Of a DNA stretch of 64,000 nt, positions 75-53,452 are shown in pieces. The translations under genes and the position numbers were made by a program. The notes beneath the pieces were generated by a model, which saw only the letters and a list, made by a program, of their open reading frames with translations, searched no databases and was not told where the DNA came from. Position 1 is the stretch's first letter. The number at the start of each line of letters is the position of its first letter. The DNA is from Sipunculus nudus (lineage: Eukaryota; Annelida; Sipuncula; Golfingiida; Sipunculidae), in NCBI GenBank assembly GCA_026874595.1, contig CM049317.1:17035382-17099381 (forward strand), read 5' to 3'.

Positions 75-228
75 TTTCCCCTTACTCTCTCCGAACCGTT
101 TTCTCTGTATTCCCTGAAACGCAGAATTTGGATGCCGACGTGATCACCAAATTCTTCAAATTTGATTCTTGTCATTTGAAGGCGGCCAATGTCCAGTTCT
201 AGCCGATTGTGGAAATATTTCTTCGTAT
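75..228 (-). CDS. Exon 3 of a secreted NTF2-like paralogue (partial gene, left edge)
   Basis: This minus-strand exon is open throughout and exactly 154 nt long, the same length as exon 3 of the complete paralogue at 8886-9039. It starts after an AG acceptor (rc of 229-230) in phase 1 and ends at GTAGGT in phase 2, as in the paralogue. The translation keeps the paralogue's spacing: D/E-x-KKY at the start, KFEE-x-GD in the middle and EYR-x-x-GSERV-x-GK at the end. These residues fit the central helix and beta strands of an NTF2-like fold. Exon 4 would lie left of the window. No convincing exon 2 or exon 1 was found between 229 and 1500, so the gene may be broken upstream or those exons may have diverged. 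Whether the copy is functional cannot be told. Confidence 0.6.
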
Positions 229-1497: not shown

Positions 1498-2680
1498 AGC
1501 ATTAAATATCGAGATTTCATGTTTTCTCATTTGATTCAGATATGCTATCTTCAGTCAGGCATAAATATTTGTTTATCATTCAAATAAAAGTATAATTCCG
1601 ACAAGTAAGGGACAGGGCGTTGCTCAGGCCTTGAGGCTTTGGAAAAGGCTGTTTCTAAAAGTGAGAAAAGTACAAGCTTCTCAGGGCCTTGCAGGTTCGC
1701 TCTGCCTTAACGACAGGTTTTGATTTCTTTTTATAATAAAATCATCTGGCATTTTTTTCACAGCTGCTCATACGCCATTTTGCTGCAGAGCCTAAGCTAC
1801 CGACGAGACATGCTAGTCATAAGTGTTATACCCTCCAGTTGTATATAAACAACCTCATTGAAGGTTATCACAGTAAACGGGTTATTTTCTTCAAATCTAA
1901 ATTTTTCTACGTAGATATTTATTATTTTACATGGTTAAATAAGACCAAAGGTGAGAGAAATACTAGATACGTTATCTTCTATTCCGCGTGTGACGCAGAT
2001 GAACTGCTGTTATCAATATGACGGACAGGAGCTTCCACATTTCTGAGATAATAGGGTATTAGGTTTGTGCCTTGATGAAGTCAATATTATTAAGCTTGAA
2101 TGTTAAGTGAAATAGAAATTATGAGGATTATTCGTCTAAATAAAGCTATCAATGTGATGTTCTTTTAGTAAAATTACCAATTTAATTAATATTTCACCAT
2201 TCCTTTTTTGGCGAAAATTTAATTACAATCGGAATAATTAGACAATTCTCGAGAATCACAATTATTTCTCGTTTGGTAGAGATATGTCCTTCTTTACTCT
2301 TGATTGCTGGAGGGATCTTACGATTCTATGCGACAAATTTTCTTCCATGATGAGTCAGAAGGTCCGTTTTCCCAGATGAATAGCATACTACAAGTGGATT
2401 AAAATGGCAACTCAATACTGGAGTTAAAGTTTATGTGCTTAGTTATGCAGGAATTGCATACTACATATTTGATTAAAAATTGTTCTTTACAAATGTTCTT
2501 TTAACCACATTTTTGTTTTGGATATTTATTCTGTTCGTTTCAACAGTTATAATCATGACCATTTTTTCTGATCCGTTCGTACACTCCATTTATTAAGTTT
2601 CAACAGTGACAGAATATTCATAATCCACGATGGTACGATTCATCTGTGGAGGAATACAGACAAGCGTGATACAGAGTATC
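1498..2680 (-). repeat. Duplicated block, copy 1 (downstream flank of the NTF2-like family)
   Basis: This block aligns by eye with 7858-8850 and 19668-20400. Shared landmarks are a stretch near 1500-1600, the 'ccgacgaga/tat/catgctagtcat' stretch near 1801-1820 (8110-8131 in copy 2), and the last-exon region near 2290-2390. The block is the 3' part and downstream flank of the minus-strand NTF2-like genes. It loses similarity after about 2680, where a microsatellite and hairpin follow. Confidence 0.65.
2318..2387 (-). pseudogene. Last exon of an NTF2-like paralogue, frameshifted relic
   Basis: On the minus strand, after an AG acceptor, the reading T-ATG-CTA-TTC-ATC-TGG matches the start of exon 4 in the complete gene (MLLIW there, MLFIW here). 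It runs on through a P-S-D-S-S-W segment. After the Trp-Lys codons about one base is missing relative to the paralogue. This changes frame, turns the conserved C-terminal WN segment into an unrelated tail, and stops at TAA (2318-2320). The codon matching the paralogue's second Trp reads TAG in the original frame. No exon 3 is found upstream, where a microsatellite and hairpin now sit, so this copy is dead. Confidence 0.6.
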
Positions 2681-7510: not shown

Positions 7511-8405
7511 GTGAATAAAAAGGAATAAGACTCAGGTAAATGGTTCAGGGGTAAGTTTGAGCTTTGTAAGCTCAAAACATCGTGTAAAAATATATGTGAT
7601 TCCTGTCATTTTCTGTCACTTAGTGTGATTGGTATTATCATGATTTCGGAGAATACATATATTCTGTTTTTCAGGACTGTTGTGTTCCTATGATCATGGA
7701 TAGTATATCGGCTGAACAACAATAATTGTGCTCAAATTAATCCAATTTGAAGATGTAAGAATTCATTAATTTTATATAAAAAAAAATTACCCACCAGCAT
7801 TAGCTTTTTTTTTCAAATATCCTCATTCATTTTTTAAATATCCACGGCTTTTTAAGATGAGCTTCAAATGTCGAAATTTTCATTATTTCTTCGTTTCATA
7901 CAGGTACGTCTTTCTACAGTCAAGCATACTTTTATATTTTTCTTCTTATAGAATAGTCAATTCAGACGAGTAGGAGATTGTTTAGTGATCCAGGCGTTAA
8001 AATAGTGTTTAACAGTAAGAAAAGTAAACAATCTCGTCAGATTCTTCGCTCTGTCTTAACGATATTTAATAAGTTCTATTTATAATAAAAAATGCCATCT
8101 TTGTTGTGTACAGTAAGCCACCGACGAGTTATGCTTGTCATCAGATTTCTACTCTCTGGGTATAAACAAAGACATTTGACGGTTATCAGGATGACCGGTA
8201 TACTTTAATAAATTGTTTTATTGTTTCTACTTAGATATTTATTAGTCGCATATTTATTAGTCGCATTAATATTTAGCTCGCAGTTTTAGCGAAGTAGATA
8301 TTATATATTAAAGTACCTCTAAAAAGTTTGCAATGTGACGTAATCTTAATGACAAAATCAAATACTTTAAACATATAAACCAATACTGTCATATATTTTG
8401 TTGTT

Positions 8406-8411
8406 TTTATT
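8406..8411 (-). promoter_or_regulatory. Polyadenylation signal of the NTF2-like gene
   Basis: AATAAA on the minus strand about 80 nt after the stop codon. The paralogue block near 19895 keeps the hexamer, while the block at 1498-2680 has lost the exact form. Confidence 0.5.
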
Positions 8412-8489
8412 TAATTGCATTGGAAGAATCAGACGATTCTGGAGAGCCCCAGTTGCTTTTTCTTTGGTCTAGATATGTCCCGCCCCTGA

Positions 8490-8580
8490 CTAGCTTGCTG
8501 GAGGGTTGTTACGATTCCATGCGGCATATTTGATTTTCCAAATTGAGTCTGAACGATCTTTCACCCAGATCAGAAGCATA
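8490..8580 (-). CDS. NTF2-like gene, exon 4 (last)
   Basis: Starts with T-ATG after a CAAG acceptor and ends in TAG. It encodes the last two beta strands, with MLLIW and WKIKYAAWN, then NRNNPPAS. The copy at 19979-20069 has the same 91-nt length and nearly the same tail. Confidence 0.8.
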
Positions 8581-9828
8581 CTTGAAGTCGAATGAAATGA
8601 CATGCCAAAGTTAAAGTAAACGTTGGTGTGCTTTGTTATGCAGGATTAATACTAAATTCATGCTGATTAAGTTATACCATTATCAACAGATCTACCAATC
8701 GCAAATTATCTTAAAATATTCGCTCTGTGCATTCAGCATTTAAAACTATGACAACTTTCTCTGGTTCATTTCGCACACTTCTTATTTAAAGGTTTCAAAA
8801 AGGACAACATACCCATGCATGATTATACGCTTTAACTGTTTAGGAATACGGAAAATATGGTTAAACACCTTGAGAGAATGCTTACTTCCCGTTTACCCTT
8901 TCCGACCCATCTTTCCGGTACTCTTCCATATGTACAGTTTCTACAACAACACCATCGCCACATTCTTCAAATTTACTTTGATTTAATTTGGCAGATCCAA
9001 CTGCCTTCTGACGCCGGATCTGCATATATTTCTTAAACTCTGTAATCGGAAAATAAGTTATCTTAGATCCCATTCGGACATTACACGTTAAGGATTTTTA
9101 CTCTATCAAAACGGTTTGCTATCAACCATAATCAAATAAATTGTTTCTAATTAAATCAATATGTTTCATAAGTAGAAGGAGTTTTAGCAACGAGATCGGT
9201 GAGAGAGGATTAATTTATCTTTTTCTACTCAAGGAATTAGAGACAACACAAATTCCATTCTTATATCTACATTTTTATCTCTAAAACGATTATAATAATG
9301 AAAGCGAAACTAAACATTACATTTTTAATGAGACATAACTGTTTTTTCCTGACCGGAATGTTAATATATTTTCTTTAATTTTAAAGAATAAATTTTATGC
9401 AAAGACAAAAGAAAAATAATTGTGAAAGTTATTTTGCTTCCTTACCTTCTCCTTTTAAAATTTGGTTATCCGGACGAAGCAAAATCACGTCTGGTGAATA
9501 GTATTTGCGTTCATGTAAGGGCAACTGCTTGTCGTTGAATAATTTTAAGTGCTGGTTCTGAATAAGTTGTATTCTTTTTACAGTTGGGTCTGTCTTACCT
9601 AGTGACAAAATGATTTATATTTACAATGAAAAAATTGAAATTCTTATTGTGTCCTTTGTATTGTTTTCTTTCTCGAAATACGTATATACGTGAATGCTAC
9701 TACAGTGTAAATAGAATAATAATGTCTCTAGATATTTAACCAGATTGGCACATACCTTTATCATCTCCGAGATTCCCACGAACACCTATCAGGAATAGAA
9801 CAATGCTGAGCTTCCGCAGGTGGTTCAT
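8490..9828 (-). CDS. Secreted NTF2-like (SnoaL/DUF4440-type) protein, complete four-exon gene
   Basis: Four minus-strand exons join in frame: 9756-9828, 9446-9598, 8886-9039 and 8490-8580 (471 nt, 156 aa plus stop). Introns are GT-AG, with phases 1, 1 and 2. Residues 1-18 form a signal peptide (MNHLRKLSIVLFLIGVRG). The rest reads as one NTF2-like domain. A first helix carries QLIQNQHLKLF. Then come the typical KYYSPDVILLRP turn, a 'LKGEEFKKYM' helix start, KFEECGD-VVVET and EYRKDGSERVNG strands, and the closing MLLIWVKD and WKIKYAAWN strands. This order and spacing matches the SnoaL-like/DUF4440 families, which include small enzymes and ligand-binding folds. A catalytic role cannot be assigned. 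The gene belongs to a local family with one partial and two dead copies. Export from the cell is inferred from the signal peptide. A stop codon read directly after GK in exon 3 is an alternative, but exon 4, conserved in two more copies, argues for splicing. Confidence 0.8.
8886..9039 (-). CDS. NTF2-like gene, exon 3
   Basis: 154 nt, after a GATTACAG acceptor and before the donor GTAAGC. It encodes EFKKYMQIRR to SERVNG. The last two bases (AA) complete a codon with the first base of exon 4. Confidence 0.8.
9446..9598 (-). CDS. NTF2-like gene, exon 2
   Basis: 153 nt, phase 1 to phase 1, with acceptor GTCACTAG and donor GTAAGG. It encodes GKTDPTVKRI through LLRPDNQILKGE, the part with the YY-x-PD turn diagnostic of NTF2-like folds. 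Only this copy of exon 2 was found in the window. Confidence 0.8.
9756..9828 (-). CDS. NTF2-like gene, exon 1 (signal peptide)
   Basis: The ATG at 9828-9826 opens a hydrophobic leader and the exon ends AAAG before the donor GTATGT. A TATA-like stretch (about 9869-9875) and an octamer-type ATGCAAAT (rc of 9907-9914) lie upstream on the minus strand. Their use is unproven. Confidence 0.75.
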
Positions 9829-10319: not shown

Positions 10320-11770
10320 ATATAGCAGGCATCCTTCACTCTGGAAAGACTTTAGTATGGCGTTGCGCCCTGGATAGATGTTTTAGAACAGCCCTTTGTA
10401 CGGCTAACCAGGCCAATGCAGGAGTGACCATCTGTCCCACATCGAGTACACAGGAACTCTGATGCTTTTCTGTATGTATGGCTTATGGTTTGACTCTCTT
10501 GCCTCTTGGCTTTTCATTGCGGCGATACGGTCTCTTCGGACTTAGTGGGGCCTTTCTTTACTGTCTGTCTCCAGGATGTTCACACTGAAGCGGTGGCTTG
10601 GTTGTTGTTTAGTTCGAAGCCCATAGCCTTCAGGCCATTCTTGCAGTTATCTCTATGGCAGAGTTGGGGTCTACCTATTGGTCGTGCTCCCTGAGACAGC
10701 ACACCGTTAAGGAAATCCTTGGGGATACGACCTTCGTCCATTCCCTCGACGTGTCTGAGCCAGGAGGCGTCTATGTTTGAGTATGGTGAACCTGCTTGGA
10801 ATTCCTGCTCTGTTTATGACAGCAGTGTTTGGTAATTTATTCTGCAGCTAATGTCCAGGATGTGGCGGAGACTAATAATGTGGAAAGCAATCAGCTTGTG
10901 TTCCAGTCGGGGGCGTATAGGCCAAGCCTCACGGTCAAACATCAAGCAGAGTACTCACAACACAGGTCCTGTAGACCTGGATCTCGGTGTGTTCTGTCAG
11001 CTTGCTGCGATTCAAAACTCTCTTGGCCAGCCTAGACATGGAAGTAACTGCCTTGCTAATACACTTGTTCAGCTCAGTCTTAAGAAAGTAGGAGTCGGAG
11101 ATCGCTGAGCTCATCACTTGTGTTTTCTTGAGGTTGATCGTGAGTCCGAATGCCTGGTAGGCTGCGCATAAATGGGACCTGCAGTTGCAGGTCTTTAGCA
11201 GAGTGCGTTGTGGCTGCTGTATCGTCTGCAAAGAGGAAATCCCGCACACACTTCAACTAAACTTTGATCTTTGCTCTTAGCAAGGAAAGGTTGAAGAGTT
11301 TCCTGTCTGGTCTGGTTCGAAGGTACTTACCATGCTTCAGCAGGGCAGCAAAAAAGATGACGAACATGGTCGGTGCAAGGACGCAGACTTGTTGTTACAC
11401 CGCTTCGGAGTAGCAAAGACTTCTGATGTCTTGCCGTCAAGGACCAGGGTACCTTTCATGTCGTCATGGAATTACTGACCAGCTTGGGAGATCCTCCGAT
11501 TTTATGGAGGATCTCTTGATCGGGCGTCCCTACCCACTAATTCAATCGCCCTCGTCAGGTGTATGAAGATCATGAACAGTGGTTATTTTGTTCCCTGAAT
11601 TTCTCCTGCAGTTGTCTGATGGAAGAGACGAGTCGACTGTGGACCTATTCGCGCTGTAACCACACTGGATTCTGGGTAGACTCGTTCTGCTTAAATCTGG
11701 AGCCTCTTCCAGTGATGCAAAGAAGGAAAATGCCGAAATAGTTGTTACAATTGCTCTAGTCAACATGTTC
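10320..11770 (-). mobile_element. Decayed non-LTR retrotransposon, reverse transcriptase 3' half
   Basis: Read on the minus strand from about 11640 to 10400, broken frames give successive pieces of a LINE ORF2. First comes LREKFREQNNHCS, then CVLAPTMFVIFFAALL, then the RT active-site motif LFADDTA near 11234-11214. Next are AYQAFGLTINLKKTQVMSS, then SRLAKRVLNRSKLTEHTEIQ with VYRTCVVSTLL, then a GRIPKDFLNGVL and GRPQL segment. A terminal CTRCGTDGHSCIGL zinc-finger-like motif closes the series. The longest open piece is 10935-11249. Many frameshifts and stops show it is dead. Order and motifs are those of RTE-like or related LINEs; the clade is not settled. The AAT/AT run at 10200-10308 lies at its 3' end. 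Confidence 0.85.
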
Positions 11771-15402: not shown

Positions 15403-18400
15403 CTTACATAAATTTTGTATTTCAATTCAGGTGTTTTCACACATTTTCCATGAACTATGAATTGAGCTATGCCTAGTTTTACGGCATAGGACACACTGGT
15501 CAATGGTCGGAGGACACACTGCAACTTTTTTTCAATTGTTTTGCAATTTAGTTAGAAAACATATAGCGATATAGGAAAGATAAATAATTTACTGTATGTA
15601 TGGAAGGTGTGTTGGGAAGGATACTTATTTTGTTATATAAACCAACGTTATTCCCTGATAATATTCCAACATATTTGATTGAAGTATGTAAAGTCTTCTT
15701 GTGCACCTACTCCTTTTGATGAAGGATCCAAGAGACTTATAAATGAGTCTTAAATATTTCGCCTCGAATCGCAACGATCCCGTAGCAGAATAAGTTGAAG
15801 CTAGTCTTACCTGAGAAAGACACCTATGCTAAGGACCAGCCAAATTCTTATGTTGGCAATAACGTTTCCATCTAATGAACAATATCATTTATTATATTTT
15901 AAGTACAATCAATGTAATGGATTTATGATTTTAGAAAACACTTTTTTAACATGAAACACTGATAACAATGAAAATGATATTAAAAAATCAAAGCAAGGGA
16001 GAGAACATATTATATTTAGGTTACATGTATATTAAACCCAAATATGAATCAGTGTGAAATAAATATGTAAGTACCAAGGACATCCAAACCTAAAAAGAAA
16101 ATACTTGTGATGTATTATGGTGATGAGACGGTCATATTAACGTGAGTATAACGTTTTGTAAGGAAATACATTATATTTTTGAAATGTCCAAATAGTCAGC
16201 TAACTCAACGGAATTATCGTTAGATATCGAACAAAAACAACAAATATTGTATGAAGTATATTCAAGTCAGTCCTTCAGGTGCCCGTTCAGCAGGCCAGAG
16301 TCCACAATAACAGGATAACAAAACATCAGACCCTTACAGCAATGAAGGGGACGCGGTAAGTCGGTTAAATCTATATTTTATTTTCATTTAATCAATATAC
16401 ATGTTAAGAAAACTTTGAAACATTTCAAACGTATTTTGCAGTAAATATGACCAAAACCGATTTATAGTTTAAATGTAGCCAGCTTCAGGTCAGAAAGTCA
16501 TGTCATTTGTTAATACTTTACTTGGCCCCGCGTTTTAAAGTTAAAATATTGGAGCTCAACTTTTAAGAAATTTAATATATATTTGAATATAAATTAAAAC
16601 AGCATAATTATTTGGATAATAGAGATCATACTAGTATAGGTGCGACCTGGACAGCTCAGTGTATGATTGGAATTTACATTCGCAGTCTACATGGTCTGGA
16701 CCATTAATTTTACTGGAATACTCCTGCATAGATAGTAATTTTGGCGGCTGCACAATTTTATTTAAGAATTTAATGTGTATCATATCATACACTCGTTTAT
16801 TCCGCCAAGACCATCTGTTTTAAAGCAGTGAATACATAGTTCCAAAGAAAACAGGTTATTGAACCAATTTTTTAACTGCCTAAATATTTGATCAATGAAG
16901 GATTGTACATTAATGCATCTCAGTCACGATAAATGATATACGGGTAAATGAGACAATTCCTAGAATTGTAACATGAAGCAGCATTTCTTTACACTTATCC
17001 TAGATAATATTTAACTGAAATGGCAAAGTGAGCTTGTGGCTTTGTTCAAATCTATGCACTCTGAGACTGTGGATACCTTTTGAGAACGGATTAAGTTAAT
17101 GAGGACTTTAGAATATCAGCTGGGTGTTTTATTCTTTTAGAAAAAAATATGTCTGTATAAAAATAAAAGTCAGTAATATTATCACTTTCTCACTTTGCGT
17201 TGTTTAGACCATGTTTTACATTCTAAATTGTTAAGAACTAGAAGGAAATGTCCAATTGAGTTAACTTTAACTGTTTGGGATGATAAAGTTATGATAGTGA
17301 ATATGAATATGCTAAAGTTGTATTATGATGCGGAGACTGCCATTTTAGTGTGTCTAAAGTTCTTTAGAAACAAAAGCTACATATCTGACAAGACAAGGGG
17401 GCTTTTACTTAAGTTTACCTACACATCTTGTTGTTAAGAGGCGTTTGTCAATGTTGGATTTCTAAACATAAGAATCTTCAGGGTGATTTTCAGGGAATGT
17501 TTGGAGATACAGGTAACACATATATTGGATTTGGATTATATTTGGTCAACTTTTTATTCAGAAATAAATTAAACTTTCAAGCTTTCATTTATTTTAGACA
17601 ACTTGTTTTTAAACAAATCATTTCATTAAGATATTTGTTTACTAATACGGCAAAAAGAATGGCCTGTGACATTGATTAAAATAAAAAAAATAATAATAAA
17701 TTGACTATCAATGGTATTTATTTTTACATTTCAACAAGAAAAAAAGAAAATATGTCTGAAGATAAAGAGTAAGGATATGCAGGAATAAGAATTGAATAAG
17801 AAATGTAGGCTTATATTCTACAGCACATGGTCTCTAGATTGATTAATGAATATCTAAGTAAAACCATATTTATTTAGCCACTGTAGGAAACTACTCTATA
17901 AACAAGACAGTTTGCTACATAACAAAAAGTGCAGGACAGATTTAAAAAGTATTACAATATACAAAGAAGACTAAAAGAGAGGAAATATTGAATCATCTGC
18001 AGTTAAATCTTGGAAATTCAGAACGCATACTTTCCGGCTCACTAAAAACATGACGGGATATTTGTAAACTGATCACGTTTATATTTTGCTATGCATATAA
18101 GCGTATAACATGACTGTATGCTAAGTCAGAATCCCAAATAAAATGCAACTCCAGTAACCGCAAAGACAGTTATCAATTATTCTTAATAGACAATGCTGTC
18201 TAACATAGACAAAAGATGTAAGGAATTATTAAACAAACGAGCTGTGTTTATAAATGTTCCTCTTCACTAAAATAGTTTGTGTCACTTTTTCATGGTTGAT
18301 GAACGCCATTTTTAGATCTGTCATGAACACGTCCCATTTGATCTAATGTGGGCTTTTTGCGCACTTTAAAAAAAATAAACATATTAGACTGAAATGTATT

Positions 18401-19667: not shown

Positions 19668-20400
19668 TGAAGCTTCAAATGTAGATATTTCTTCCTAATT
19701 TTATACATATATGCCTTTCTCCGCTAAAACACATAGACGCTTATATTTATAGAATAAGCCAGTTATTAGGTCACATGAGGTAGAAATTACGAAAAATATC
19801 CGGGATTATATCTCCAAATAAAATTTGCAATATTGCCTGATCTCAGTGAGAGTGCCGTTCGAACAAATAATTTCATAATTATTTTTAATATTTTAATTTT
19901 TATTACAATGGGAAGAATTAGACGATTCTCGAGAGTCGTAATTATCTCGCGATTGGAACAGATGTTATCCTGTCCACTCTAGCTGGCCGAAGGGTTGTTA
20001 CGATTCCGTGCGGCATATTTGGCCTTCCATAAAGAACCTGAAGGATATTTTACAAATATAAGAAGCATTCTGTAAATATAATAAAAGGATAACTCTATTT
20101 TTTAGTCCACACGTACACAGTGGAGTACTTAGTTCTGTAGGATTGACACACTACATATGTGGCAAAAAGTTTGAAAATTATGAATAGATCTTCTAAATCT
20201 TATTTATACAATATTCGCTGTTCATTAGAAGAATTACAACTATTACAATGTTTTACTGGCCCGTTTAGCATACTTTATCAATTAAGTCTCGATCATTAAA
20301 ACACTCCATACTGTACGATTATACATTTCTTCTAAGGAACACAGAAAAAAATGATATAGAGAATTAGACAGAAAAGTTGCCTACTTCCCGTTTACCCTGT
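19668..20400 (-). repeat. Duplicated block, copy 3
   Basis: Aligns with 7858-8850 from 'gaagcttcaaatgt' onward and includes the last-exon region with the 'ttgttacgattcc-tgcggcatattt' landmark. It is shorter than copy 2. Confidence 0.65.
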
Positions 20401-20496
20401 TCGAGCTATTTTTTTCTATTCTCTATAATACTTATGGTCTCTATAACAACATCCTCACCAACATACTTAAATTTACTTTGATTAAATTTGTCCCAT
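19979..20496 (-). pseudogene. NTF2-like paralogue: intact exon 4, broken exon 3
   Basis: Exon 4 (19979-20069, 91 nt) is fully open after a TTTACAG acceptor. It encodes MLLIFVKYPSGSLWK and then KYAARNRNNPSAS before TAG, closely matching the complete gene. Exon 3 survives from about 20496 down to 20385. It keeps KFNQSKF and VNGK-like ends, but carries one extra A in an A7 run near 20409-20415. This shifts frame and brings in TAG. A TGA also lies in frame just upstream of the preserved part. The 5' third of exon 3 and exons 1-2 were not found. The copy is most likely dead, although the A7 slip could be a sequencing error. Confidence 0.65.
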
Positions 20497-22949: not shown

Positions 22950-25496
22950 GTATATCAACTTATCATTATGGTCATAAACCAAAGAGCGATTATAATTAAA
23001 TTATTTGATCAATCACTTGTATTTATCGGGGCCATTGTGAGATAGGGTCCTGTGTTCGTCTTCACATATTTTTATTCGCTTTTGGCCTTCCATTTATAAT
23101 TTTCCATCTCATACATTACGGAACAAAACGAAACGTGTACCTCTCACGTGATTTTCCAATATTTCATTTCATAAGTCTGCTTCTAGATATAGGTGGTAAA
23201 AAGTACCAATATAAAGCTGTGTTAAAAAAATGTATTTAGCCGAAAGGTATATTACTAAGATCGGAGGTGAAATTGGTGATATTGGACTAATGTGGTTATC
23301 AAGATTTTAAAATTATATGATTCTAAAACAAAACTTCGATGTATGCAGCATGTATATTTTAAATACGCGAAAGGTCAAACATATATCTCCGAACATTTTC
23401 CGCAAAAACCAAGGAACATTTTTTCCTATGAAACATCCGTTTGAAATCGATCACCATTCACATAAATCGTCAAATTTGAACAAAAAGCTGTTGTGTTTGT
23501 TTACCTTGACAGATAGCGCTGGGTGTCCGATTGGCTGGCTAGAGTTTGGAAGTTCTTACTATTTGCTGGAGGAAACCGTTGCATCATGGGAAGATGCAGG
23601 CAAAACGTGTACACAATACCAAGCCCGACTTGTCACGATAGAAACAGAGGAAGAAAATATGTTTCTAGCAACATCCGTCGAGTGGGAATATGCATGGCTT
23701 GGGGGTAACGACCTACGTAATGGTAAGCATTTTAAATTATTTTCTATATAATAACATCTTATAACATTGATTTTGTTAAGGATTATATTTGAATGTTTAA
23801 GAGATTGTTGGGATGTCACGTCATATTTTATTCAAGAGACATCAGCGAATACTTCCTAACGTCAAGCATTCCAATAATTAAAATACTTTTACTATAACAT
23901 GAAATTAGTTTAATTTAAGAAACATTGATTTCAGAGGGGTTCTGGGAATGGCAGGATGGAAGTAAAATTAATTGGACCAACTGGGCTAAAGGCGAACCAA
24001 ATAATATATTTACCCTGGGTTTTCCCCAAAATTGTCTTCAATTCATGCCGCCGAAACAAGGCCTTTGGGATGACGGACGATGTCGTAATCCTCGTCCCTA
24101 CATTTGTGAGATGAATAAAGGTAAAATGCTATCACGGTTTTATTGGTTTTTATGGTCTATATTATGGGCACTAGCAGGTTTTCTTTGGTTTACACACCCT
24201 TTATCGGCTTCTGTGCTCTATGGATAGATAACATAGCCCAAATCTTGAAATCATGAGCTTAAATCTCAGCCCAGAAGCGCTGAGCTTAATCACGATTAGC
24301 TCCCATCCAGGGTGAGCTCTCTGATGGCTTAATGCATTGTCTGTTTCCAAATGCCGTTTTTCACTCAAAAAACTAGTGCACCTCTTCGGGTAACATTGTG
24401 TTACAAACCAAGCACTTTTAGATGCGGTACAAAGAGCCTTGTTGACGGTAGGATAAATATGAGTTCCAGCCCTGACACAGATTCCATGATGGAATTCTAC
24501 AATTCTACATCTTACCAGGATAACACCAGCGTTAAACAACGAAGGCGGATACCCCCAACAACCAAAAATTATAAATAAAAATTGTGAAAATGCCTTTTCA
24601 ATTATTTTCTGCAAGTCCCCTTTAGACCCTGATACAGATCCATCAAAACGATAGATTCACCTGGACTGTGAGCATACCTTCCATTGTTTGCTACGTTTTC
24701 TCCAAAAGAGAACCACGTGAACGTACTTCGTTTAAGCTTCCATTATTATAAGGTCTTTGCGGTATGGTGATGGCTGTCCCATTCCTCCATTGAGACTGCG
24801 TCTTCAAGGCCACGTTAATTTATGACAGGCGGGCTCTGATGGTATACATGTACCTTGCCCAGCCAAACATAAACATCTAAGATTTTAAAATTATTGTTAA
24901 TGAAACTTTGTGAGAAAAGCACGCAGGCGAAATGAAAAGGAATGTATGCTAGTGCGGACCAATGTATATTTATTGAGATACATTACAGAGAAACACTGTA
25001 CAAAAAACAGTGGGGCGAATATGGTAAGATTCTGATCTAGAACTAGATCACACATTGGAACCACGAACATCACATAAACAGTGATTTATTAGTTACACAA
25101 CATTACCCAACGATAGATTTGGTCATGTCATAATTGTAAAGAATATTTTAGTTTGTGTAAACACTTTATTAAACTAAATAAATTTGTCTGAAGGTTTTTG
25201 TAATATGTATAATTTTGTTGAATTTAGATGAATGGACATATTCACATGGACTTCGAGCAAACTTCATCGGATTCAACGGTTTATTCTTGGAATCGGCCTC
25301 CTTCTTTTCAGGAAGTACACGCTCTACAATCACCTGCGGGATCCTCTGTGCCCAGACACCTCATTGTCTCTCCGTCAACATAATTTCAAAGCAAGCTGGG
25401 AAAACGTGCTTAATGATGAATCATACAACAGAAGAAGACGAGGACACGTTCAAATCATGTAAAAATTGTAAATTGATAATAAAAAGCGTGATTTAA
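22883..25496 (+). CDS. Secreted C-type lectin with C-terminal PAN/apple-like domain, complete four-exon gene
   Basis: Exons 22883-22949, 23513-23722, 23935-24120 and 25228-25496 join in frame, all in phase 1, giving 243 aa. Residues 1-22 are a signal peptide. Residues 23-153 are a C-type lectin domain: GCPIGW start, WEDAGKTC helix, LVTIETEEEN, WLGG strand, W-x-W-x-DG, GEPNN (EPN at 113-115) and LWDDGRC (WDD at 137-139) with the closing YIC. In this family EPN goes with Ca2+-dependent mannose-type sugar binding, and WDD stands where WND is usual. The Cys that normally pairs with GCP is Tyr here (GSSYYL), so that bridge is missing. Residues 155-243 hold a short cysteine-rich domain (TCGILCAQTPHC, KTCLMMN, SCKNC) of PAN/apple type. 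The protein is probably secreted and may act in sugar recognition. A decayed copy of the last exon lies at 31006. Confidence 0.85.
23513..23722 (+). CDS. Lectin gene, exon 2 (first half of the CTLD)
   Basis: Acceptor TTGACAG, donor ATG/GTAAGC, 210 nt. Covers DSAGCPIGW to NDLRN, including the WLGG core strand. The upstream open frame from 23317 is intron read-through. Confidence 0.85.
23935..24120 (+). CDS. Lectin gene, exon 3 (second half of the CTLD)
   Basis: Acceptor ATTTCAG, donor AAG/GTAAAA, 186 nt. Contains the sugar-binding EPN and WDD motifs and the two C-terminal cysteines of the domain. Confidence 0.85.
24236..24345 (+). repeat. SINE fragment
   Basis: The 'tcatgagcttaaatctcagc' and 'tccatccagggtgagctct' stretches match the reverse complement of the SINE at 48690-48965. 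It sits in intron 3 of the lectin gene. Confidence 0.6.
25228..25496 (+). CDS. Lectin gene, exon 4 (PAN/apple-like domain, stop)
   Basis: Acceptor AATTTAG, TAA stop at 25494-25496. Encodes DEWTYSHGLRANFIGFNG and a six-to-seven-cysteine C-terminal domain. Confidence 0.8.
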
Positions 25497-50700: not shown

Positions 50701-53452
50701 TTTCCTGAGAGATACCTGTATCTTAATATTTTTTAAATAGATAATCGCCTCCATTTTTTAGCTGTTTTATCTAACCCTCAATCTAAGAATGTACGTCTGA
50801 AGTGTTCCATTTCATAATGGGAAGAGAGGACGGGTAACATTCGGTTCCTGTCATGCTATTTTGTATCCTGGTGTGTACGAAACCTGCGGTCCTGGGTGTG
50901 TAATTATACCCACTGCTGGGTCATATCACCAAGGAAATCCTGAAGGCGGACTCTTTTGTTAGTGATTAGGTTGTAGGACACAGCTTTCAAATTAAGCCAC
51001 CAAAGCGCTCCTCCCGGATGGGGCCCGATCGTGAGAAACCTCACCGCTCTTCGACTCAGATTTGAACTCATGACCTCCCATCTTTGTACTACCCTTAGTC
51101 CATAAAACTACTTTAAGATCAAGATACATATCTAACGGCGCATTTGCAAATTAACAAAAAGCATAAAATTCTTGTTGTTCCTACAAATATTTTGAGCAAT
51201 CTTCCGTACACTCTATCTATATTTATATAATAAACAAAAGATGATTAACTTGCCAATTCACAAGTTTATCAATATTTTTTTTAAAATATTACACTATGAA
51301 GTAATGAACACTAATCGCGCAGTGTGCTAAAATGTGGAATTCATATTGTTGTCTCATCTCATATATATTTTACTACGGTTTTTCATCTTTTCAGTCTCTT
51401 CTATTTGCTTTTAGTGTAAAGCGTTTATAGCAATTGGATTTTATACACTGTGTTAAAGATATGTATTATTCTTATTATTCTTCTTCTTATAATTACTATT
51501 ATTATTACTCTCTTTCAAACGCAGTGTGTCAGCCTTGTCGTTCCTGGGACTGCCATCGTCTGGATGGCGGAACTTGTCTGCGCATACGCTGTGGGCTTCA
51601 TAACTGGTTTCAAGCAAGAGAGGTGTGCTGGGAGATGGGTGGTCATCTGTTGGACGTAGAAAGCTGGAGTGGTGTTACCTTGACAACAATTAAGAACCAA
51701 CAACAGATCGGTCCCTGCAATGAATTCTGGCTTGCACAGCATAAGTTGGAATGGGTCATTGAAGGTGAGTCTTAGTACCATTTTGAGATGATGAGCTATT
51801 TATGTTAATAATCTGAAGATTTGCAACACCAAAAGAGAGGTCTTTATTGTATAGTTGACCTCCAATGAGGTTTTACTATTTACGTTGGGGGGAAGGGGTT
51901 CTAGCCCGGGACGGGGGGGGGGGGGGTAATGAGAAAATAGTCCAAGTCCAAAAAATTCTGAAACCGAAACCTGTAGAGGACACATGTTTATCGAACTGAC
52001 ATATTGTTTCATACCAAAGTGAAAATAGTTCCAACAACACGAAGAATCCTTCAAATGCAGTTATTTTAATGTTTACATAAGACGTATCTCTGAGAAATTT
52101 GAAGAGAATAAATCACACAAGTTTCTATTGTAATGTGCATACTCTTTTATCATTTTCCTCCGTTTAATTTTGTGATCCAAATTCTTATTAAATAAGCTTT
52201 AATTTCGTTCACCTGATTACACAGTGACTCTTGGTATGACTTCCAATATGGACGCTTTATAGGGCAATACCTTAATTTATAGGCATGTTGGTTATAGAAG
52301 TGATGTAGTATTGCTATGTCTGACTGGATCAGTTACTCAGTGTTCTGAGGAAAGGTTATTTGTTTATAGGGAATTTCAAAGGTATTCAGTTTGGGGTAAA
52401 CGTGGCCTAGTCGCCTGTTATAGATTTGTTTATTTTTTAACTTATTAGATGTATTGATTTATGTCATCAAGACTGACTAACCTTTTAACCCTTTCGATTG
52501 TTGTTTATGGTTTTAGGGTCCTCCAGCCATGCAGACGCCCGTATACCACCCATCACCAACTGGCACCCAACAACTAGGCAGGAACTGAAGAAAAACTGCG
52601 CGGTTGTCCAGAAATTTGAGAACGTGTGGTGGTGGGCTTTCAGCAACTGTTACGAAAAACATCACGTTGTCTGTGTGAACGGTAAGATTTGACACCTCGT
52701 CAGTACCGATACACATAAATTAAGAAAAACGCTCAAAAGTTTAATGTCAGTATTATATTTACAGTGCAGTAGTTACCATATGAAAAGCGCTTTGTCATTT
52801 AAGATAATATTATGCTTTTTCAAATAAGTTCACATCAGGAGAAAAATTACTGTTTTTTTTTTTATTTTTCGAATCTCAGCCTAAGCGGTGAGATTTTTCA
52901 CCGTCGGCCCCGGCCAAGGGTGGGCGTTCTGCAGGCTTAATGGGACGGCCGTGTTTCACTCATGAACGAGGGCGCCTTTCTGGGGTTCCTCGATGTAATG
53001 ACCAGTAATGCAGTAGTCACCGGGCCTGGTTGATGCCAGGATATAAAATCAGTGGATGCCTGTGATTCTCATAGTCCCAAAAATCAGTTGTAAACCTTAG
53101 TACTAGTGATGAGTGAAACTGTTAAGTGTTCATTTGTTTCTCAGAGTCTGCCTTCACGACAAAAGAGATCATCACAAGACCGGAAAACTCGGAGAAGAAA
53201 ACCGAAACAAGTTCAAAGCAGACAGGTCGGTATGTGCTCTATGTGTATGTTTGGGAGGGGAGGCATGTGCTGGACTCCAAAAAACTCTTTCACATTGTTG
53301 TGTGTACTTTGAACGCGTGGCACTTGTTGATCAATTAGAACTAGATGTGCCCATTCCATAGTGTGTGTGTGTGTGAGAACCTATGTCAACTGTAACAGTA
53401 TTGCCTCCGATTCTTCTCTAGACTAGCTCCTTATTTCCTTCATGTATAACTC

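Follow-up and report, generated by a model that had tools for sequence, protein, structure and literature searches.

The question raised by this locus is what a compact four-exon gene of Sipunculus nudus encodes, and whether its product could be an NTF2-like protein working outside the cell, as a preliminary description of the DNA had proposed. The gene lies on the minus strand of the analysed stretch of 64,000 nucleotides (the window, whose coordinates are used throughout; negative values lie to its left). Its parts are as follows.

9756..9828, minus strand: exon 1 of the target gene (copy I), 73 nt, with the start codon and a signal-peptide-like segment MNHLRKLSIVLFLIGVRGNLGDDK; GT donor, open frame
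9446..9598, minus strand: exon 2, 153 nt, encoding the N-terminal portion of the domain; AG/GT borders
8886..9039, minus strand: exon 3, 154 nt, encoding the middle of the domain; AG/GT borders
8490..8580, minus strand: exon 4, 91 nt with the stop codon, C-terminal part ending WKIKYAAWNRNNPPAS; AG acceptor
8406..8411, minus strand: polyadenylation signal AATAAA, 79 nt past the stop codon

When the exons were joined, they formed one open frame of 156 codons and a stop, which gives a protein of 156 amino acids. All six intron borders were GT or AG (three introns, each GT...AG), and from the exon lengths of 73, 153, 154 and 91 nt it follows that the introns are in phases 1, 1 and 2. The four-exon gene of the preliminary description was recovered in full, and every motif it had named (YYSPDVILLRP, KGEEF, GDGVVVET, GNMLLIW and WKIKYAAWN) was found in the target product.

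To see the gene among its relatives, tblastn with the exons was run over a 284-kb region made up of the window with 160 kb on its left and 60 kb on its right (rows with E > 0.01 were dropped). We found 11 copies from -33.2 kb to +20.5 kb. With copy L, at 2.3 kb, which was added from blastn, the copies in the cluster, whether full, partial or broken, number at least 12 in 54 kb; an extra fragment near -3.7 kb had a tblastn E value of 0.087. Besides the target, two copies are fully open, and both encode 160 amino acids on the plus strand: paralogue B (-21832 to -19606) and paralogue E (-8965 to -7035), about 28 and 16 kb left of the target. Their exons measure 85, 153, 154 and 91 nt, their intron phases are identical to those of the target, and AATAAA stands 80 nt (B) and 82 nt (E) past the stop. 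Since two further complete genes with this structure lie outside the window, the target gene is not a chance arrangement.

At least nine copies are partial or broken. Copy D has all four exons with a stop in exon 3, which is 154 nt long by a hand count of the printed borders, and the other copies have one to three exons each, several with stops. The copies inside the window are listed here.

75..228, minus strand: open exon 3 of 154 nt from paralogue H, whose exon 4 is located immediately left of the window
2305..2389, minus strand: broken exon 4 of copy L, with an in-frame stop
15707..15787, plus strand (opposite to the target): fragment K, broken and exon-4-like, tblastn E 0.002, with an in-frame stop
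19979..20489, minus strand: copy J; exon 3 is truncated and frame-broken, while the 91-nt exon 4 is open

An intact exon 2 of paralogue H was not found by tblastn. By blastn, the target has a near sister in copy L with its 5′ flank (67.5% over 456 columns against 8409-8855) and another in copy J (67.3% over 648 columns against 8378-8990). Meanwhile, positions 1793-1924 and 8114-8244, beside two copies, share a stretch of 71% identity that is perhaps part of a duplicated unit.

Copies I, B, E and H all have an exon 3 of 154 nt from border to border, and exon 4 runs 91 nt to the stop and is preceded by AG in all eight copies sliced, out of 11 with exon-4 sequence (the broken or fragmentary F, K and L were left out). 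The conserved lengths reported for paralogues were thereby borne out, but the paralogues in the window are partial or broken, and the intact ones lie outside it. Furthermore, two protein searches of the whole assembly (1.43 Gb in 153 contigs; exons scored singly, counts being lower bounds) found no convincing family copy beyond the cluster. The target as query gave at least 19 matches; 18 fell in C12:17002131-17055452 and one outside it (E 2.9). Paralogue E gave at least 24; 21 fell in the cluster and three outside it (E 0.68 to 3.0).

What family do these products belong to? The Pfam search gave a single family for each intact product, DUF4440 (PF14534 / IPR027843), with 24.3 bits for the target (E 4.6e-5), 21.7 for B (E 2.9e-4) and 26.7 for E (E 7.7e-6). 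Only E passes the curated cut-off of 25.2 bits; the target is just below it and B lower. Of the 107 profile positions, the match covers 3-106 in B and 2-107 in E, and it is shorter in the target (21-107). The InterPro columns of PMC7407331 assign DUF4440 to the NTF2-like superfamily (IPR032710), and the available text of PMC3924330 names it as an NTF2-like domain. The target product probably has an NTF2-like fold, because DUF4440 is NTF2-like. Of the NTF2-like single-domain claim, the single-domain product and the DUF4440 match stood, and the fold is predicted through DUF4440 only.

Other searches for relatives were negative or non-significant. NCBIfam gave no match for any of the three intact products. 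A PDB sequence search gave nothing for the target, and with a profile it gave three matches of E 0.25 or worse, apparently meaningless. An hhalign comparison of the family with the bacterial DUF4440 protein that contig C131 of this assembly encodes gave a probability of 0.4% (E 0.14). In addition, the sole match of paralogue E in tblastn against a plasmid collection was non-significant (E 0.7, 24.7% identity over 59%); it is annotated SgcJ/EcaC, which we take to be NTF2-like.

The start of the protein bears on where it would act. Each of the three intact products begins with one or two basic residues followed by a hydrophobic core (9-residue Kyte-Doolittle hydropathy 2.6-3.0, and 2.96 in exon 1 of the target). 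Random ATG frames with a basic start (1214 in all) reached or exceeded the score of the target in 1.5% of cases, that of B in 5.0% and that of E in 3.0%. Exon 1 differs in length (73 vs 85 nt), and the start pattern M-x-x-L-R is common to the intact copies. A second membrane-length hydrophobic stretch was absent from all three (beyond residue 30, no 19-residue segment exceeded a hydropathy of 0.56), and so was a KDEL-like C-terminal signal. The signal peptide claimed earlier is consistent with this start, as predicted from hydropathy, and the proteins of the family are probably secreted. Furthermore, past the signal segment there is one cysteine in the target and none in B or E, so disulphides within the chain are not expected.

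We give a probability of roughly 0.55 to the reading that the target is an intact member of a locally duplicated animal family, whose product would be a secreted single DUF4440 (NTF2-like) domain that binds a small molecule without catalysis. A secreted small-molecule-binding protein is the most likely product in our analysis. Exon 1 would encode a cleaved signal peptide and export one NTF2-like domain. Members of the NTF2-like superfamily are usually dimers, and the remainder of the chain would fold as an NTF2-like alpha+beta cone with a bent sheet and a pocket, probably dimeric. This cone may act extracellularly as a container for a small molecule, with no catalysis; the non-enzymatic part comes from a general statement in the available text of PMC3924330 that extracellular members tend to bind and not to catalyse. 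Copies would arise through local duplication and many would decay, and such turnover would fit a function that tolerates it, for example the sequestering or carrying of variable small ligands. DUF4440 is a domain of unknown function, and the cluster offers a tractable set of paralogues for asking what its pockets hold outside the cell. It would also show how a fold known chiefly from intracellular proteins gets exported and then undergoes birth and death of copies.

A secreted enzyme is an unlikely alternative in our view. In its favour, the three intact paralogues agree in many polar residues (such as D61, R66, K79, Y80, R84, E115, Y116, R117, E122, R123, D135, D138, K144, Y145 and N149). Acid/base residues of the pocket would then isomerise, cyclise, dehydrate or hydrolyse a small extracellular molecule, as in SnoaL, scytalone dehydratase or limonene epoxide hydrolase. 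Catalytic pocket residues of this acid/base kind mark NTF2-like enzymes, ketosteroid isomerase among them. However, three sequences are too few to separate catalytic from structural conservation, and enzymatic members tend to be intracellular according to the available text of PMC3924330.

The neighbourhood of the gene was examined as well. The Pfam scan covered ten frames, picked by eye from the 140 listed in the window. Two frames at 23311-24224 on the plus strand carry Lectin_C domains above the cut-off (E 2.6e-7 and 1.6e-6), and two frames at 51431-52689, also on the plus strand, carry weaker ones below it. The frame at 25182-25493, beside the lectin, gave a weak PAN_1 (PAN/apple) match (E 0.012). 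Meanwhile, the frame at 10938-11252 on the minus strand looks like a reverse-transcriptase fragment by eye and had no Pfam match. The region is probably a neighbourhood of secreted-protein genes, though not a shown unit. It is doubtful indeed that the target is a secreted immune or symbiosis factor acting with these C-type lectins. Their presence in the same window and the turnover of copies in the cluster would agree with it, but about 13.7 kb separate the target's start codon from the first lectin domain, and the paralogue cluster extends mostly the other way. For these two reasons the closeness is weak evidence of shared function: the preliminary description had placed the family near lectin genes, and the functional hint it drew from this is a weak one.

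The intact copies can also be compared with each other. Over the 132 codons of exons 2-4, there were 59 identities between I and B, 49 between I and E, and 73 between B and E. The NG86 dN/dS was below 1 in every pair, namely 0.32 for B/E (0.51 by YN00), 0.26 for I/B and 0.14 for I/E, the last two being rough because dS is high (I/E saturated and I/B close to saturation). The dS values were 1.6 (I/B), 3.8 (I/E) and 0.9 (B/E). Judged from these codon comparisons, the intact copies are old duplicates under constraint. We had also considered a 'young' family, and this was dropped because dS ranges from 0.9 to 3.8 among the intact copies.

That the target is a dying pseudogene, by chance still open, appears improbable to us. 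Both of its nearest sisters at the DNA level, at 2.3 kb and at 20.0-20.5 kb, are broken copies, and just three of the at least 12 copies (target, B and E) are fully open. However, the target has four open exons, all of its borders, a polyadenylation signal and the I/B dN/dS given above; that constraint may in turn predate a recent loss of function.

The assembly also contains several bacterial-looking contigs. A whole-genome search with PF14534 at E 0.001 matched only C131, whose contig looks bacterial from its frames by eye; its protein gave three matches of E 0.12 or worse in the PDB sequence search, including one SnoaL-like chain (E 0.48). Since the contig looks bacterial and the C131 protein does not align with the family, nothing marks the C131 gene as its source. 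A bacterial origin of the family was rejected, as no significant relative appeared in two scans of the genome contigs (queries: the three-paralogue alignment and the C131 protein) or in the plasmid-collection tblastn. In addition, nine near-equal COX1-family matches (418.8-420.4 bits, open under the standard code) lie on eight contigs within C60-C89 and were taken as bacterial, and C123 has a cbb3-type oxidase by eye and reads as bacterial. Together, the contigs C60-C89, C123 and C131 suggest bacteria associated with the host. It is quite unlikely, though the assembly holds such contigs, that this is a secreted NTF2-like family at the host-microbe interface, where it would bind or modify small molecules from bacteria or the diet.

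Secreted single-domain proteins that bind small molecules, as preferred here, can be set beside what is known of DUF4440. A cluster of genes for secreted single-domain DUF4440 proteins in an animal was not found described in the available text of the literature mentioning DUF4440, so the word 'unrecognised' used at first was fair within that literature. Within the same literature, the target family is an undescribed, putative member of the known DUF4440 family. The SXP/RAL-2 family is DUF148. A table in PMC7407331 assigns DUF4440 to two nematode SXP/RAL-2 allergens, an entry we consider doubtful. In their available text, this source and PMC7465371 include nematode proteins among the animal DUF4440 members, the domain is merely listed for human brain in PMC10035768, and animal DUF4440 proteins occur in proteomic lists, two for Anisakis and one each for Parascaris vesicles and a sponge skeleton.

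Compared with Pfam DUF4440, the sequence match extends over most of the domain in the target family, whereas the signal-peptide-like exon and the local cluster are features of the present genes, and the target and B score below the curated cut-off. Secreted bacterial DUF3828, DUF3887 and DUF4878 are likewise small extracellular NTF2-like domains proposed as non-catalytic binders of small molecules in the available text of PMC3924330. However, they are mainly bacterial, belong to other Pfam families (the three intact products had no Pfam match to them), and some are lipid-anchored or fused to other domains. An animal DUF4440 protein occurs in the extracellular fraction of Parascaris vesicles (PMC11468347), as proposed here for the target, with no signal peptide mentioned in the available text of that source. 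Furthermore, the skeleton of the sponge Vaceletia contains an animal DUF4440 protein in extracellular material, but that protein combines Ig and DUF4440 domains with a predicted membrane helix, according to the available text of PMC4633127.
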